Of a DNA stretch of 64,000 bases, positions 37,581 to 44,909 are shown piece by piece (positions within the stretch are counted from its first letter, which is position 1; each line of letters starts with the position of its first letter). Under the pieces are notes generated by a model. That model was not told where the DNA came from, did no database searches, and saw only the letters and a list, made by a program, of their open reading frames with translations. The translations under genes and the position numbers were made by a program. Source of the DNA: Pseudomonas tritici (GTDB taxonomy: Bacteria > Pseudomonadota > Gammaproteobacteria > Pseudomonadales > Pseudomonadaceae); contig NZ_CP077084.1 in assembly GCF_014268275.3 (NCBI RefSeq), positions 1,116,001 to 1,180,000 of the forward strand, in the 5' to 3' direction.

Positions 37581-38498
37581 ATGGTCGACAAACTGACGCA
37601 TCTGAAACAGCTGGAGGCGGAAAGCATCCACATCATCCGCGAGGTCGCCGCCGAGTTCGACAACCCGGTGATGCTCTACTCGATCGGTAAAGACTCCGCC
37701 GTGATGCTGCACCTGGCACGCAAGGCCTTCTTCCCGGGCAAACTGCCATTCCCAGTGATGCACGTCGACACCCGCTGGAAATTCCAGGAAATGTACACGT
37801 TCCGCGACAAAATGGTCGAAGAGCTTGGCCTGGACCTGATCACCCACATCAACCCGGATGGCGTGGCGCAGGGCATCAACCCGTTCACCCACGGCAGCGC
37901 CAAGCACACCGACATCATGAAGACCGAAGGCCTCAAGCAGGCCCTGGACAAGCATGGTTTCGACGCAGCGTTCGGCGGTGCCCGTCGCGATGAAGAGAAA
38001 TCCCGTGCCAAAGAGCGCGTGTACTCGTTCCGCGACAGCAAGCACCGCTGGGACCCGAAAAACCAGCGCCCGGAGCTGTGGAACGTCTACAACGGCAACG
38101 TCAACAAGGGCGAGTCCATCCGCGTGTTCCCGCTGTCCAACTGGACCGAGCTGGACATCTGGCAGTACATCTACCTGGAAGGCATCCCGATCGTACCGCT
38201 GTACTTCGCCGCCGAGCGCGACGTGATCGAGAAGAACGGCACGTTGATCATGATCGACGACGACCGCATCCTCGAGCACCTGTCCGACGAAGACAAAGCC
38301 CGAATCGTCAAAAAGAAAGTCCGTTTCCGTACCCTTGGCTGCTACCCGTTGACGGGCGCGGTGGAATCCGAAGCCGAGACGCTGACGGACATCATTCAGG
38401 AAATGCTCCTGACGCGAACTTCCGAGCGCCAGGGCCGTGTCATCGACCACGATGGCGCAGGCTCGATGGAAGATAAAAAACGTCAAGGCTATTTCTAA
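37581..38498 (+). CDS. cysD: Sulfate adenylyltransferase subunit 2
   Basis: PP-loop ATP pyrophosphatase that makes APS from sulfate and ATP together with CysN. The 305-residue protein has the PP-loop motif [20 protein letters not shown] at about 33-52, and the conserved HVDTRWKF and [16 protein letters not shown]. Its stop lies nine bases before cysNC, so the two subunits are produced together. Standard length. Confidence 0.97.
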
Positions 38499-38507
38499 GG
38501 GGCTGTC

Positions 38508-40406
38508 ATGTCGCATCAATCTGATTTGATCAGCGAGGACATCCTCGCTTACCTGGGCCAGCACGAGCGCAAGGAAATGTTGCGCTTCCTGACCTGCGGC
38601 AACGTCGACGACGGCAAGAGCACCCTGATCGGGCGCCTGCTGCACGACTCCAAGATGATCTACGAAGATCACCTGGAAGCCATCACCCGCGATTCGAAGA
38701 AGTCCGGCACCACCGGTGACGACGTCGACCTGGCGTTGCTGGTCGACGGCCTGCAGGCTGAGCGTGAGCAAGGCATCACCATTGATGTCGCCTACCGCTA
38801 CTTCTCTACCGCCAAGCGCAAATTCATCATCGCCGACACCCCCGGCCATGAGCAGTACACCCGCAACATGGCCACCGGTGCGTCCACCTGTGACTTGGCG
38901 ATCATCCTGATCGACGCCCGCTACGGCGTGCAGACCCAGACCCGTCGCCATAGCTATATCGCCTCGTTGCTGGGCATCAAGCACATCGTGATCGCCGTCA
39001 ACAAGATGGACATCAATGGCTTTGACCAAAGCGTATTCGAGTCGATCAAGGCCGATTACCTGAAGTTTGCCGATGGCATCGCCTTCAAGCCGAGCACCAT
39101 GGCCTTCGTGCCGATGTCGGCGCTCAAGGGCGATAACGTGGTCAACAAGAGCGAGCGTTCGCCCTGGTACACCGGGCAGTCGCTGATGGAGATCCTCGAA
39201 ACCGTCGAGATCGCCAACGACCGCAACTACACCGACCTGCGTTTCCCGGTGCAGTACGTCAACCGGCCGAACCTGAACTTCCGTGGTTTCGCCGGCACCC
39301 TGGCCAGCGGCATCGTGCACAAGGGCGACGAAGTCGTGGTGTTGCCGTCGGGCAAGAGCAGCCGCGTCAAATCCATCGTCACCTTTGAAGGTGAGCTGGA
39401 ACACGCCGGCCCTGGTCAAGCGGTGACGCTGACCATGGAAGACGAGATCGATATCTCCCGTGGCGACCTGCTGGTACATGCCGACAACGTGCCGCAAGTG
39501 ACCGACGCTTTCGACGCCATGCTGGTGTGGATGGCCGAAGAACCGATGCTGCCGGGCAAGAAATACGACATCAAGCGCGCCACCAGCTACGTGCCGGGTT
39601 CCATCACCAGCATCGTGCACCGTGTGGATGTGAACACCCTGGCCGAAGGCCCGGCGAGTTCGCTGCAGTTGAACGAGATTGGCCGGGTCAAGGTCAGCCT
39701 CGACGCGGCCATCGCCCTGGACGGTTACGACAGCAACCGCACGACCGGTGCGTTCATCGTCATCGACCGCTTGACCAACGGCACTGTGGCCGCGGGCATG
39801 ATCATCGCACCGCCAGTCACTCACGGCAGCGCGTCGCAGCACGGCAAGCTGGCCCACGTGGCCACCGAAGAGCGTGCCCTGCGCTTCGGCCAGCAGCCGG
39901 CCACCGTGTTGTTCAGCGGCCTGTCCGGCGCAGGCAAGAGCACCTTGGCCTACGCGGTTGAGCGCAAGCTGTTCGACATGGGCCGTGCGGTGTTTGTACT
40001 GGACGGCCAGAACCTGCGTCACGACCTGAACAAGGGCTTGCCGCAGGACCGTGCCGGGCGCACCGAGAACTGGCGTCGTGCCGCTCACGTGGCGCGTCAG
40101 TTCAACGAAGCGGGCCTGCTGACCCTGGCCGCGTTTGTGGCACCGGATGCCGAAGGCCGTGAACAGGCCAAGGCGCTGATCGGCGGCGACCGTCTGCTGA
40201 CGGTCTACGTGCAAGCGTCACCGCTGGTGTGCGCCGAGCGTGACCCGCAAGGCTTGTACGCGGCGGGCGGGGATAACATCCCTGGCGAGTCGTTCCCGTA
40301 TGACGTGCCGTTGAATGCCGATCTGGTCATCGACACCCAGGCCCTGTCGCTGGAAGACAGCGTCAAGCAAGTGCTGGAGTTGTTGCGTCAGCGCGGCGCG
40401 ATCTAA
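38508..40406 (+). CDS. cysNC: Bifunctional sulfate adenylyltransferase subunit 1 / adenylylsulfate kinase
   Basis: Fusion of the GTPase subunit of ATP sulfurylase with APS kinase, so one protein carries sulfate activation through to PAPS. In the 632-residue product the GTPase domain has [10 protein letters not shown] (about 26-35), [11 protein letters not shown] and NKMDING; the APS kinase begins near 460 with the P-loop GLSGAGKST (about 470-478) and [13 protein letters not shown]. This fusion is usual in Pseudomonas. Followed by a strong terminator. Confidence 0.97.
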
Positions 40407-40485: not shown

Positions 40486-40570
40486 AATGTGGGAGCGGGC
40501 TTGCTCGCGAATGCGGAGTGTCAGCCAATACATAGGTAACTGATCCACCGCCTTCGCGAGCAAGCCCGCT
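40486..40570. repeat. REP doublet interrupted by the IS110 element
   Basis: Left arm 40486-40511; right arm 40553-40570 stops abruptly at CCCGCT and continues only after the insertion sequence, at 41819-41826 (CCCACATT). Joined across the element, the right arm is a perfect 26-base complement of the left arm. The REP type (GCGGGCTTGCTCGCGAA) resembles that at 32997. Confidence 0.92.
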
Positions 40571-40595
40571 TGTGTCTTGAACCAGGCTTAAACTG

Positions 40596-40760
40596 AAGGT
40601 GAGAGCGGTGAGTGACAAGCTGAATGCCCGAAGTGCTTAAAGCACGTGTGGGAGCCCATGCTGTCACTCACCTCTCCACTCTGGTCATTGAGCCCGAACA
40701 GTTGAACGAGCCCACCTCGAACAGTTACAAGCGTGGGCCAAGCCAGAGCGCTCTCACCTT
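40596..40760 (+). ncRNA. Predicted IS110 bridge RNA (target and donor guide RNA)
   Basis: A closing stem of 12 perfect pairs (40596-40607 with 40749-40760) encloses two stem-loops. The first (stem 40607-40617/40662-40672, apical hairpin 40633-40645) has ATGCCCG (40624-40630) on its 5' side, six of seven bases like the left target AAGCCCG, and TGTGGGAGC (40647-40655) on its 3' side, fully complementary to GCTCCCACA of the right target including the CT core. The second (stem 40679-40684/40743-40748, apical stem 40707-40710/40716-40719) has ACAGTTG (40698-40704), identical to the right end before CT, and ACAAG (40727-40731), complementary to CTTGT at the left junction. The order left target, right target, left donor, right donor is that of IS621 bridge RNA. 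Confidence 0.82.
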
Positions 40761-40780
40761 GAGTGTAAGAGGATTTGGCT

Positions 40781-41713
40781 ATGTTTTCCTATCCAGCAGG
40801 TATTGATGTCTCCAGCGGTAGCCTCGAGATTCGGGTTGATCAACTGGATGTAGCGATGAGTTGTTCCAATTCGCAGAGTGATTTTCCTGGGTTAATTGGA
40901 TGGCTAACCCTGCATCGCGTGGGTCGAGTGTTGCTGGAGGCCACTGGCGGTTACGAGCGCAAAGTCATGAAAGCGCTTCAAGCTGCGGGCTTTGAAGTCA
41001 TACGGATCAACCCTTGCCGAGCCAAAAGCTTTGCCCGGGCTATGGGGCAACAAGCCAAAACCGATCCGATAGATGCACGCCTTCTTGCGCAGTTCGCAGC
41101 GGTCATCAAATCGCCCGATAGCCGGGTTACCAGCGCCGAGCAGGATGATTTGCGCGCCCTAGTCCAACAGCGAGAGCACTTTGTTCAGCAAAGAGATGAC
41201 GACAAACGGCGGCTTAAAACGGCCTCCTCTGACGTGGTCAAGCCTGCGCTGCAGAGTCATATCGACTATTTGCAAAAAGTGCTGAAGGAGCTGGAAAGCC
41301 TGATCCGCCAAAGTACAGAACGTCTGGATCGTAAAAAAGTAGCCCTTCTGTGCTCAGTCAAAGGCATAGGACTTGTTACAGCGGCCAGCTTGATGTCCTA
41401 TCTTCCGGAGCTAGGCGAGGTGGGTAGACATCAGATTGCAGCATTGAGCGGCACTGCGCCCTACAACGACGATAGCGGCAAGCACAAAGGCAAGCGTCAT
41501 ATCAGCGGCGGCAGGTTCGCCGCGAGGCGCTCACTGTATATGGCCTGTTGGTCAGTGATCCGGTTTCAGCCTGAGTTTGCCGCGCGATATAAGGCGCTGC
41601 GCGAGAAAGGAAAATGCGCCAAAGTGGCACTCATCGCGTGTATGCGTGTTTTGCTGGTACGCCTAAACGCAATGATCCGTGATGGATCTGAATGGAAAGA
41701 GCACGCCGCCTAA
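40781..41713 (+). CDS. IS110-family transposase (DEDD recombinase)
   Basis: RNA-guided type recombinase of 310 residues. N-terminal DEDD (RuvC-like) domain with D9 (AGIDVSSG), E53 (LLEATGGYE) and D95/D98 (KTDPIDARL); a helical linker at about 120-185; and the C-terminal Tnp20 domain with SVKGIGLVTAASLMSYLPELG, GTAPYNDDSGKHKGKRHISGGRF and S242, which aligns with the nucleophilic Ser of IS110 enzymes. All key residues are there, so the element looks functional. ATG 40781 follows AAGAGGA by six bases; the predicted bridge RNA ends 20 bases upstream. Codon use is less GC-biased than the neighbours. Confidence 0.95.
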   Translation: MFSYPAGIDVSSGSLEIRVDQLDVAMSCSNSQSDFPGLIGWLTLHRVGRVLLEATGGYERKVMKALQAAGFEVIRINPCRAKSFARAMGQQAKTDPIDARLLAQFAAVIKSPDSRVTSAEQDDLRALVQQREHFVQQRDDDKRRLKTASSDVVKPALQSHIDYLQKVLKELESLIRQSTERLDRKKVALLCSVKGIGLVTAASLMSYLPELGEVGRHQIAALSGTAPYNDDSGKHKGKRHISGGRFAARRSLYMACWSVIRFQPEFAARYKALREKGKCAKVALIACMRVLLVRLNAMIRDGSEWKEHAA

Positions 41714-41830
41714 AATCCTGCGGTAGCTATTTCCTAAAGCAGTTACACGGAGTACAGCCGTGGGAGCGTTGCCGCCTCTGGAAAAAATGGCTTGATGAAA
41801 ACCATCAAGACAGTTGCTCCCACATTTTGA

Positions 41831-42730
41831 TCATCGGTTGTCTGGGAAATCTGTGTGCAATTTAGCGAGCAACTGATCCTTCTCTTCCCACAACCGATTG
41901 ATCCACCCCTGGAACGCCAACCGATACTCCCCATCCTGCTCATAATTCTTTCCAATGAACTCAGCCGGGATCTGCACCTCTTCAAACTGCACCACCACGT
42001 CCTTCACATTCCCGCACAGCAAATCCCAATACCCAGGGCGTCCGGCAGGGTAGTGAATGGTCACGTTGACCAATGACTTCAACTGCTCACCCATCGCATC
42101 CAGCACAAACGCGATACCACCGGCCTTGGGTTTGAGCAGGTAGCGAAACGGCGAGTTCTGCTGCGCATGCTTGCCGGGGGTAAACCGCGTGCCTTCGGCA
42201 AAGTTGAAAATTCCCACCGAGTTGTCGCGAAACTTCGCACAGGTCTTGCGCGTAGTTTCCAGGTCCTTGCCCTTTTTCTCCGGGTGTTTTTCCAGATAAG
42301 CCTTGGTGTAGCGCTTCATGAACGGAAAGCCCAGCGCCCACCACGCCAGGCCGATTACCGGCACCCAGATCAGCTCCTGCTTGAGGAAGAACTTCAGCGG
42401 GCGGATCCGACGGTTCAGCACATATTGCAGCACCATGATGTCGACCCAGCTCTGGTGGTTGCTGGTCACCAGGTACGAGTGCTGGTAATCCAAGCTTTCC
42501 AGGCCTTTAAGGTGCCAGCGCGTGCGCCGGACCAGGTTCATCCAGCCCTTGTTGTTGGTGACCCAGGCCTCATGCGTGTGGTTCATCAGCCATTCGCTGA
42601 AACCCTTGGCAAACGGCAGCGCCTTGAACAGCGCGACGATAAACAAGAACGAGCACAGCAGGATCGTGTTCAGCGCCAGCAACAGCGATGCGATCACCCC
42701 GCGCACGGCGGCAGGTAGAAAATCCAGCAT
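41831..42730 (-). CDS. 1-acyl-sn-glycerol-3-phosphate acyltransferase family protein (YihG-like)
   Basis: Inner-membrane acyltransferase of 299 residues, of the PlsC superfamily. An N-terminal membrane segment (SLLLALNTILLCSFLFIVALF) is followed by the catalytic HX4D motif in SNHQSWVDIMVL and by the glycerophosphate motif EGTRFT. It resembles E. coli YihG, which acylates lysophosphatidic acid with a different chain preference from PlsC. It directly follows pta on the same strand (adjacent stop and start). Substrate is inferred from family. Confidence 0.88.
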   Translation of the reverse strand: MLDFLPAAVRGVIASLLLALNTILLCSFLFIVALFKALPFAKGFSEWLMNHTHEAWVTNNKGWMNLVRRTRWHLKGLESLDYQHSYLVTSNHQSWVDIMVLQYVLNRRIRPLKFFLKQELIWVPVIGLAWWALGFPFMKRYTKAYLEKHPEKKGKDLETTRKTCAKFRDNSVGIFNFAEGTRFTPGKHAQQNSPFRYLLKPKAGGIAFVLDAMGEQLKSLVNVTIHYPAGRPGYWDLLCGNVKDVVVQFEEVQIPAEFIGKNYEQDGEYRLAFQGWINRLWEEKDQLLAKLHTDFPDNR

Positions 42731-44830
42731 TTAGATATCCATAGGTCGGTTGGCGGCTTGGATCGCGGTGAGCGCGATGGTGTACACAATGTCGTCCACC
42801 TGAGCGCCACGCGGCAGGTCGTTGACCGGTTTGCGCAGGCCTTGGAGCATCGGCCCCAGGCTCACGCAATCGGCGCTGCGTTGTACCGCTTTGTGGGTGG
42901 TGTTGCCGGTGTTCAGGTCGGGGAACACGAACACCGTGGCCTTGCCGGCAACCAGGCTGTCGGGGGCCAGTTGGCGGGCCACGGTTTCGTTAGCCGCGGC
43001 ATCGTATTGCAGTGGGCCGTCGATCAGCAGCGAGCTTTGTTGCTCATGGGCGAGCAGGGTGGCTTCACGGACTTTCTCCACTTCCTCGCCGCTGGCGGAG
43101 TCGCCGCTGGAATAGCTGATCATCGCCACGCGCGGCGTGATGCCAAAAGCAGCGGCCGAATCAGCGCTTTGCAGGGCGATCTCCGCCAGTTCGGCAGCGC
43201 TCGGGTGCGGGTTCATCACACAGTCGCCGTACACCAGCACCTGCTCAGGGAACAGCATGAAAAACACCGACGACACCAGCGTGCAACCCGGTGCGGTCTT
43301 GATCAACTGCAGGGCAGGGCGGATGGTATTGGCGGTGGAGTGGATAACGCCGGAAACCAGGCCGTCCACTTCATCCAGAGCGAGCATCATGGTAGCGATC
43401 ACCACGGTGTCTTCCAGTTGCTGCTCGGCCATCGGCGCGTTGAGGCTCTTGCTCTTGCGTAGCGCGACCATCGGTTCCACGTAGCGCTGGCGGATCAGGT
43501 CCGGGTCGAGAATCTCCAGGCCTTCGGGCAATTCGATGCCTTGGGCGCGGGCGACCGCTTCCACATCCGCCGGCTTGGCCAGCAACACGCAGCGAGCAAT
43601 GCCGCGTGCCTGGCAGATAGCGGCGGCTTGTACGGTCAGCGGTTCGCTGCCTTCCGGCAACACAATGCGTTTGTTGGCGGCCTGGGCGCGCTGGATCAAC
43701 TGGTAGCGGAACACCGCCGGCGACAGGCGCATCTCCCGCGGCGTGCCGCAACGCTGGTGCAGCCAGCGCGCATCGAGGTGACTGGCGACGAAATCGGTGA
43801 TGATTTCCGCGCGCTCGCGGTCATCGATGGGAATTTCTTTATTGAGGCTGTTGAGCTGGTTGGCAGTGTCATAGGAACCGGTGCTCACCGACAGCACCGG
43901 CAGGCCGGCCTGGAACGCACCTCGGCATAAATCCATGATGCGCGGGTCGGGCAGGGTGTCGCTGGTGAGCAACAGGCCGGCCAGCGGTACGCCGTTGATC
44001 GCGGCCAGGCTGACGGCGAGGATGATGTCGTCGCGGTCGCCGGGGGTTACCACCAGCACGCCGGGCTTGAGCAGCTCCACGGTATTTCGCATGGTGCGGG
44101 CGCAGATGATGATCTTGGTCATGCGGCGGGTTTCGTAGTCGCCGGCGTTGAGGATCTGCGCGCCCATCAGGTCGGCCACGTCGCGGGTGCGTGGGGCGTT
44201 GAGTTCCGGCTGGTAGGGGATGCAGCCGAGCAGGCGGAAATCACCGCTGCGCAGCAGGGGCGAATGTTCCTTGAGGCGCGCGGAGAAGGCTTGCATGCTT
44301 TCGTCGGTGCGCACCTTGTTAAGGATCACGCCGAGTACTTTCGGGTCTTTCGGGCCGCCGAACAGTTGGGCCTGCAATTCCACGCGGCCGGAGAGTTCGG
44401 TGAGCACTTCGTTTTCCGGGGCGGAGACCAGGATCACTTCCGCATCCAGGCTCTTGGCCAGGTGCAGGTTGACCCGCGCGGCATAGCTGGCGCTGCGGGT
44501 CGGCACCATGCCTTCGACGATCAGCACGTCCTTGCCCACTGCGGCCTGTTGGTACAGCGTGATGATTTCTTCCAGCAACTCGTCGAGCTGGCCGTCGCCG
44601 AGCATCCGCTCGACATGGGCCAGGCCCAGGGGTTGTGGTGGCTTGAGGCCGTGGGTGCGCGCTATCAGTTCGGTGGAGCGCTCAGGGCCAGTGTCGCCCG
44701 GGTGTGGTTGGGCAATCGGTTTGAAAAAGCCGACTTTCAGCCCGGCTCGCTCAAGGGTGCGCACCAGCCCAAGGCTGATGGAGGTCAGACCCACACCAAA
44801 ATCGGTGGGCGCGATAAAAAAAGTTTGCAT
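42731..44830 (-). CDS. pta: Phosphate acetyltransferase
   Basis: Interconverts acetyl-CoA and acetyl phosphate. The 699-residue long form has an N-terminal P-loop-like/DRTGG regulatory part (MQTFFIAPTDFGVGLTSISLGLVRTLE; then the DRTGG region around ARTMRNTVELLKPGVLVVTPGDRDDI) and the C-terminal PTA domain (RIVLPEGSEPLTVQAAAICQARG... and TGNTTHKAVQRSADCVSLGPMLQGL). Start at 44830 is preferred; an ATG seven codons earlier is possible. No ackA is adjacent, but the downstream acyltransferase may be co-transcribed. Confidence 0.95.
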   Translation of the reverse strand: MQTFFIAPTDFGVGLTSISLGLVRTLERAGLKVGFFKPIAQPHPGDTGPERSTELIARTHGLKPPQPLGLAHVERMLGDGQLDELLEEIITLYQQAAVGKDVLIVEGMVPTRSASYAARVNLHLAKSLDAEVILVSAPENEVLTELSGRVELQAQLFGGPKDPKVLGVILNKVRTDESMQAFSARLKEHSPLLRSGDFRLLGCIPYQPELNAPRTRDVADLMGAQILNAGDYETRRMTKIIICARTMRNTVELLKPGVLVVTPGDRDDIILAVSLAAINGVPLAGLLLTSDTLPDPRIMDLCRGAFQAGLPVLSVSTGSYDTANQLNSLNKEIPIDDRERAEIITDFVASHLDARWLHQRCGTPREMRLSPAVFRYQLIQRAQAANKRIVLPEGSEPLTVQAAAICQARGIARCVLLAKPADVEAVARAQGIELPEGLEILDPDLIRQRYVEPMVALRKSKSLNAPMAEQQLEDTVVIATMMLALDEVDGLVSGVIHSTANTIRPALQLIKTAPGCTLVSSVFFMLFPEQVLVYGDCVMNPHPSAAELAEIALQSADSAAAFGITPRVAMISYSSGDSASGEEVEKVREATLLAHEQQSSLLIDGPLQYDAAANETVARQLAPDSLVAGKATVFVFPDLNTGNTTHKAVQRSADCVSLGPMLQGLRKPVNDLPRGAQVDDIVYTIALTAIQAANRPMDI

Positions 44831-44909
44831 GCGAATTCTCTGGAGTTGCATGGCTTGGGTGGCGCTCTATGGCTGAGCGTCTACCGGGAATCAGATGCCA
44901 AGGTTATCG

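Follow-up and report, generated by a model that had tools for sequence, protein, structure and literature searches.

Bridge RNAs of IS110 elements, the agreement between their natural guides and targets, their reprogramming and the targeting of REP palindromes have been described in print, the latter for IS621, ISPpu9, ISPpu10 and ISPa11 (PMC11208160, PMC11187229, PMC1525189, PMC8450116). For IS621, an RNA with a target loop followed by a donor loop was shown to function as a bridge RNA, the core dinucleotide is reported to be part of all four guide pairings, and an IS621-type junction promoter was described by Durrant et al. (PMC11208160). ISPpu9 and ISPpu10 of Pseudomonas putida insert at a fixed REP position with a 2-bp repeat (PMC1525189, PMC8450116). 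The 2021 paper on ISPpu9 explained RNAs encoded beside tnp as regulators of translation and presented Ssr9, a sense RNA of approximately 180 nt. Ssr9 is encoded in a segment bounded by copies of both end boxes of ISPpu9, and its sequence is complementary to that of an antisense RNA of the tnp 5'-UTR (PMC8450116). Ssr9 would fit a mini-element consisting of a bridge RNA only. The seekRNA of ISPa11 from P. aeruginosa guides a Pseudomonas element that targets REPs and is in this respect comparable to the candidate presented here; this element belongs to the IS1111 group, in which, unlike in the present case, the non-coding region is located downstream of the transposase gene and the guide order is reversed (PMC11187229).

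The window analyzed in this study comprises 64,000 nucleotides of contig NZ_CP077084.1 from Pseudomonas tritici and harbors an IS110-family insertion sequence of 1248 bp, one copy of the CT core included (40569..41816, plus strand). Its ends were set by comparing copies located at different sites of the same genome and by means of the uninterrupted REP in relatives. The left half of the interrupted REP consists of the left target AAGCCCG and the core CT (40562..40570, plus strand), and the right half of the core CT and the right target CCCACA (41817..41824, plus strand); the CT core is present at both element ends, and the right end reads ACAGTTG (41810..41816, plus strand). Among 13 inverted repeats of at least 10 nt found in the element, none (0/13) pairs its two ends. 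The features of the IS1111 group, namely a downstream guide region and subterminal inverted repeats of 11–13 bp, are not those of the window element, the guide-bearing non-coding region of which is located upstream of tnp. The element sits between convergent genes, which we take to be sulfate-assimilation-like genes (cysD and cysNC-like) at 37581–40406 and an acyltransferase gene and a phosphate acetyltransferase-like gene at 41831–44851.

Five near-identical copies are carried by the genome, with transposase protein identities of 99.7–100% and identical DNA between left end and start codon. Position and orientation within the REP are the same for all of them (5/5); the interrupted sequence is AAGCCCG-CT-CCCACA in four cases and AGGCCCG-CT-CCCACA in the fifth, the right target CCCACA being identical across 5/5 copies. 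Such targets are abundant, since the exact 15-mer AAGCCCGCTCCCACA occurs at 295 sites in the genome and its reversed control at none. When the joined flanks were searched against 38 genomes, the own genome aligned in two pieces (1–211 and 209–334), and two relatives (G021 and G010) aligned end to end. Alignment of the orthologous locus revealed an uninterrupted REP in four relatives (G021, G010, G017 and G004).

The transposase gene (40781..41713, plus strand) encodes a protein of 310 amino acids featuring the DEDD RuvC-like and Transposase_20 domains (Pfam PF01548, 6e-22, and PF02371, 3e-15) and the motifs D9, E53, TD-ID and SG. It was assigned to the NCBIfam family NF033542 ‘IS110 family RNA-guided transposase’ with 200 bits as compared to a cut-off of 140. 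The closest solved chains are those of ISCro4 (6.6e-32), the best solved relative, for which the comparison covered the transposase, and IS621 (4.3e-30), whose protein is identical to the window transposase at 93 of 297 aligned positions (31%). Relatives of the transposase were detected in 27 of 398 genus genomes searched with E-values up to 1e-60, the own genome counted. Plasmid and E. coli DNA searches yielded four and five records, respectively, with short matches of 69–71% covering at most 15% of the query and only the transposase gene region, and a protein search against plasmids returned 1318 records, all below 60% identity, with the first 50 listed. Recoding of a stop codon, considered because of internal TGA flags in the homologue search, was rejected, as TGA does not precede the C-terminal region in any of the flagged full-length copies: it is the codon directly after the aligned part in L016–L020 and lies at positions 306–307 in L021, while L028 is a broken copy with TGA at the first aligned codon. 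One further locus (L030) showed an internal duplication in the transposase, a second model match upstream and N in its flanks.

Judged from its sequence, the window element is an ordinary, intact-looking Pseudomonas member of the RNA-guided IS110 family and, with high confidence, an insertion sequence that would move by bridge-RNA-guided recombination. The initial annotation had regarded it as an element not yet described in these terms. The mechanism and the REP targeting had already been published, and the claim of novelty is weakened by the papers on bridge RNAs, on natural guide/target agreement and on REP targeting as well as by the name that NCBIfam gives to the protein family.

A candidate bridge RNA of 165 nt (40596..40760, plus strand) had been proposed upstream of tnp, and its 12-bp stem, its two hairpins and its four guide segments were all recovered in place. 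The closing stem, formed by AAGGTGAGAGCG (40596–40607) and CGCTCTCACCTT (40749–40760) on the plus strand, is nested within 21-nt arms of 90% complementarity and surrounds two internal-loop hairpins, as supported by fold and covariance analyses. The predicted target-binding hairpin (40607..40672, plus strand) comprises a lower stem (40607–40617/40662–40672) and an upper stem GTGC/GCAC, whereas the predicted donor-binding hairpin (40679..40748, plus strand) has the stem CTCTGG (40679–40684)/CCAGAG (40743–40748). Within the first loop, the left target guide ATGCCCG (40624..40630, plus strand) is in sense and agrees with AAGCCCG at 40562–40568 in 6/7 bases, its second base mismatching the target in all five copies, and the right target guide TGTGGGAGC (40647..40655, plus strand) is antisense and the exact complement of GCTCCCACA, that is, of G-CT-CCCACA in the restored target. 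Within the second loop, the left donor guide ACAGTTG (40698..40704, plus strand, sense) equals the right end at 41810–41816 (7/7), and the right donor guide ACAAG (40727..40731, plus strand, antisense) is complementary to CTTGT at 40569–40573 (5/5). By sequence match, the first loop corresponds to both strands of the target, the left guide in sense and the right guide in antisense, and the second loop to those of the joined ends. The right guides contain AG, which is able to pair with the CT core, and the two left guides have AA directly after them.

This organization corresponds to that of IS621 regarding the upstream RNA, the order of target and donor loop, the orientation of left (sense) and right (antisense) guides, the CT core, the REP target and the related transposase. 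Furthermore, the IS621 donor ACAGTAT/CT/TGTATT is similar to ACAGTTG/CT/TGTGTC of the window element, and the IS621 right end ACAGTAT also occurs within its RNA. Target and donor sequences of the two elements differ, and their guides differ correspondingly. The left target guide of IS621 runs into the core (ATCGGGC-CT), whereas the left guides of the window element are followed by AA, and the right target guide of the latter is longer (8–9 nt). Inclusion of the core in left guides was treated here as a detail of IS621 rather than as a family criterion; among 23 guide haplotypes of relatives, CT directly follows the left target guide in two (L136 and L031). Compared by description, ISPpu9 and ISPpu10 share with the window element the IS110-family affiliation and insertion at one fixed place in REPs.

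Short guide segments may occur by chance. When a 159-nt part of the RNA was shuffled 100,000 times with its dinucleotides preserved, 31,202 shuffles contained the left target guide (at most one mismatch) and 29,856 the right donor guide, compared with 2,321 for the left donor guide and 297 for an exact match of the 8-nt right target guide. Since the left target guide and the right donor guide are individually common in shuffles, each of them represents weak evidence when taken singly; all four guides in IS621 order were obtained in 0/100,000 shuffles, so the ordered set is beyond chance. In addition, scanning 6,386 stretches of 159 nt on both strands of the window in 20-nt steps for the ordered guide set gave three passing stretches, which overlap and all represent this one site.

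The initial annotation had also suggested folding the region and looking for covarying stems in relatives, and both checks came out in favor of the proposed RNA. The fold of 40590–40780 has −81.9 kcal/mol as compared to a shuffled mean of −57.5 (z −5.5), and 0/200 shuffles were as good. Rfam 15 at gathering thresholds contains no family matching the RNA site, the sole match in the window being a tRNA elsewhere. For 25 of 26 related RNA sequences (L009 was omitted as a duplicate of L008), RNAalifold predicted 44 pairs, 13 of which show changes on both sides as compared to a shuffle mean of 4.4 (reached by 0/500 shuffles), and the number of further pair types was not above that of shuffles (362/500). 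In the 44-pair structure, 98.3% of 1097 cells are paired versus 32–48% with partners slid by 1–3 columns, a control that favors this structure, which was derived from the same 25 sequences. Both hairpins are conserved with compensatory changes: helix 2, representing the target-binding hairpin, has both-side changes in 7/13 pairs, and the donor-binding hairpin corresponds to helices 5–8. In the donor loop, ACAGTT of the left guide and ACAAG of the right guide are invariant in 25/25 aligned RNAs; the left end CTTAT of L136 is accompanied by the right donor guide ATAAG. Covariation of donor guides with ends is seen in few cases because donor guides, as well as ends, are nearly invariant.

A covariance model (R1) scored 173.2 bits at each of the five own copies, with one match each; of 398 family genomes searched, 23 including the own genome contained relatives. 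Applied to a 3.5-kb IS621 locus with filters off, R1 gave 18 matches, the best of which was the IS621 bridge RNA (16.6 bits; E 0.0024, E-values being rough). The target loops of model and RNA were aligned with each other, as were the donor loops, with CGGACAGUA on CGAACAGUU and CAAG on CAAG. The antisense strand of the region also gave weak model matches. Bridge RNAs without a donor loop, as might be deduced from one-hairpin matches of 84–87 nt, were rejected, since five of six inspected cases coincide with a contig end or N: L131, L132, L134 and L135 end at most 10 bases from a contig end and L137 meets N; in L133, other sequence follows, indicating a damaged copy. L122, L128 and L133 are likewise damaged, their RNA being cut or adjoining other sequence instead of an intact transposase gene.

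Guides and flanks of relatives were compared in a table of the best 47 of 82 model matches, from which L148 was dropped for length. It represents 23 guide haplotypes, 21 with a usable left flank and 18 with a usable right flank; the flanks of L031 were not recovered by the script. With few exceptions, rows of the model alignment have the left guide inside a 12-nt segment, and the right guide keeps a constant register. CCCG guides accompany CCCG targets and CCCC guides accompany CCCC targets (L012, L118), the right guide GTAGGAG accompanies CTCCTAC (L025, L027, L084, L124, L125, L130, L161), and further variants agree in the same manner: right guide TAGGAAG with CTTCCTA in L024, guide ATTCG with ATTCG in L026 and guide AGGTCCG with AGGTCCG in L124. 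The left own-target score, for which the better of two registers was taken, amounts to 112/147 for 21 haplotypes as compared to a permuted mean of 86.6 (sd 3.7), and the right one to 136/144 for 18 haplotypes as compared to 123.5 (sd 2.2); neither was reached in 20,000 permutations (0/20,000 each), which ignore descent. With one row per distinct guide, the result was 0/20,000 for 19 left guides and 143/20,000 for the right guides, of which there are only seven.

On the transposase tree, the right-guide base (G/A) agrees with the right-target base (C/T) in 27 of 28 rows, and guide and target bases require three changes each on the tree of 29 proteins. In the remaining row, L024, the guide is displaced by one position and was coded separately by the script; it still fits its target in 7/8 bases. 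There are three independent pairs, a number that cannot reach 0.05; on average, guide and target differed in the same direction in 2.6 of them and in opposite directions in none, and the guide did not differ in 0.4. The test suggested in the initial annotation, whether guide changes follow target changes among homologues, did not contradict its reading, guides fitting their own flanks better than those of other elements. Exceptions are poor left fits in L028/L127 (3/7), L123 (4/7) and L126 (5/7), a right-guide mismatch in L058 and L059 (TGGGGGAG vs. CTCCCACA), and the copies of G165 (L009, L032 and L034), in which a CCCG guide is combined with CCCC targets in 3/3 cases.

These comparisons bear on the explanation that the upstream region is a regulatory 5'-UTR of the transposase mRNA, that the REP preference originates from the protein or from REP structure and that the guides are REP-derived by-products. 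The 244-nt 5'-UTR of ISPpu9 is structured and affects translation, and the proposal made for that element includes an antisense RNA (PMC8450116); the RNA described here does hold REP-like words, and the weak antisense-strand matches of the model point in the same direction. However, the loop segments follow their own flanks, variants such as CTTCCTAC, CTCCTACA, GAATTCG and ACCGCCG included, the agreement of the donor guides with the ends of the element itself is unexpected for a REP-derived 5'-UTR, and the arrangement is one with shown bridge RNA function in IS621 (PMC11208160). As an alternative to a bridge RNA, the 5'-UTR explanation is considered highly improbable, and the two roles are compatible with each other. 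A bridge RNA naturally programmed for REP palindromes, as initially proposed, is supported by the fit of guides to flanks and by the conserved hairpins; that it is functional, we infer.

The left-guide mismatch present in all five copies could be taken to indicate a decayed element whose RNA is no longer functional. This is scarcely credible, as the five copies are nearly identical, occupy different REPs and share an intact frame and the same RNA, which points to recent movement.

REP types of the hosts were counted in 32 chosen element-holding genomes, leaving out G227, G1062, G095, G356 and others. The core-adjacent guide base corresponds to the commoner REP variant of the host in 10 of 11 close-relative hosts (Fisher p 0.015), the exception being G165, in which 301 of 319 counted sites are CCCC and 18 are CCCG. 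The element of G165 belongs to the same five-row clade of the transposase tree as elements with CCCC guides, the internal order of this clade being partly unresolved. With regard to A-guide hosts, CGCTCCTACA is commoner than CGCTCCCACA in 6/6, and in G-guide hosts CGCTCCCACA is commoner than CGCTCCTACA in 17/20 (p 0.0004, 6/32 hosts set aside); inclusion of five set-aside hosts (31/32) changed the latter to 19/25 (p 0.0013). G188 has 1073 exact AAGCCCCCTCCCACA sites, and in G866 the REP count of 63 is barely over the reversed-pattern control (49). G018, G156, G261, G288 and G307 are G-guide hosts close to an even split, and G309 is clearly opposite. Agreement between guides and host REPs fits targets changing first and guides then following; it is only suggestive because hosts and elements share descent, and also in view of G866, the near-even hosts and G309. 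It is tentatively proposed, at somewhat less than even confidence, that the guides of this clade track the REP ‘dialect’ of their hosts, a picture in which an element may insert with a mismatched guide when the REPs of a lineage differ by one base, as in G165 (3/3 copies), and in which close relatives in hosts with this REP type have the matching guide. In addition, left target guides of this clade would stop before the core (21/23 haplotypes), unlike that of IS621. The listed titles and abstract openings in the literature, a scope with subscription papers and preprints mostly outside it, contained no report of REP-type tracking by guides. The family is compact and its targets are abundant and species-specific, so that guide changes that arose in nature can be compared with them, and the order of target and guide changes as well as tolerated mismatches become directly testable; its naturally reprogrammed bridge RNAs can also be set beside that of IS621.

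By analogy with IS621, a mechanism can be outlined for the window element in which circularization would connect the two ends via the CT core, creating a promoter-like sequence that may drive transcription of the RNA. In the assembled ribonucleoprotein, the first hairpin would pair with both strands of the REP GCCCG-CT-CCCACA and the second with both strands of the joined ends, and the DEDD/serine recombinase would swap strands at the shared CT, so that the circle would be inserted into the REP in one orientation. Computational joining of the right end via CT to the left end yields TTGCTT-17-TAAACT, which is promoter-like. Over all 25 distinct junctions listed (25/25), the hexamers agree in 3–4 of 6 (−35) and 3–5 of 6 positions (−10), read at the single spacing of 17 and without a control set; L026 and L027, whose right end is longer, use TTGGCT. 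Once inserted, 16/25 have CCGCTT as the −35 sequence, L026 still has 3/6 and four were not read. An exact junction of right end, CT and left end, as in tandem or nested copies, was present in 1 of 398 genomes and there without an adjacent model match (L164, G284:C38:49431-49446); this match is likely due to chance, as about one is expected, by our estimate, for a 16-mer in that amount of DNA.

Downstream of tnp (window 41757–41776), the sequence GCCGTGGGAGCGTTGCCGCC resembles the right arm of the target loop. A similar copy, roughly GCTGTGGGAG-N4-GCTGTC, is also found in L006, L007, L008, L011, L012, L014, L073 and L083, is imperfect in L015 and is missing from the short 3' regions of L016–L018. 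This arm-like copy faces CTCCCACA past the right end, and the two could form a hairpin across the junction.
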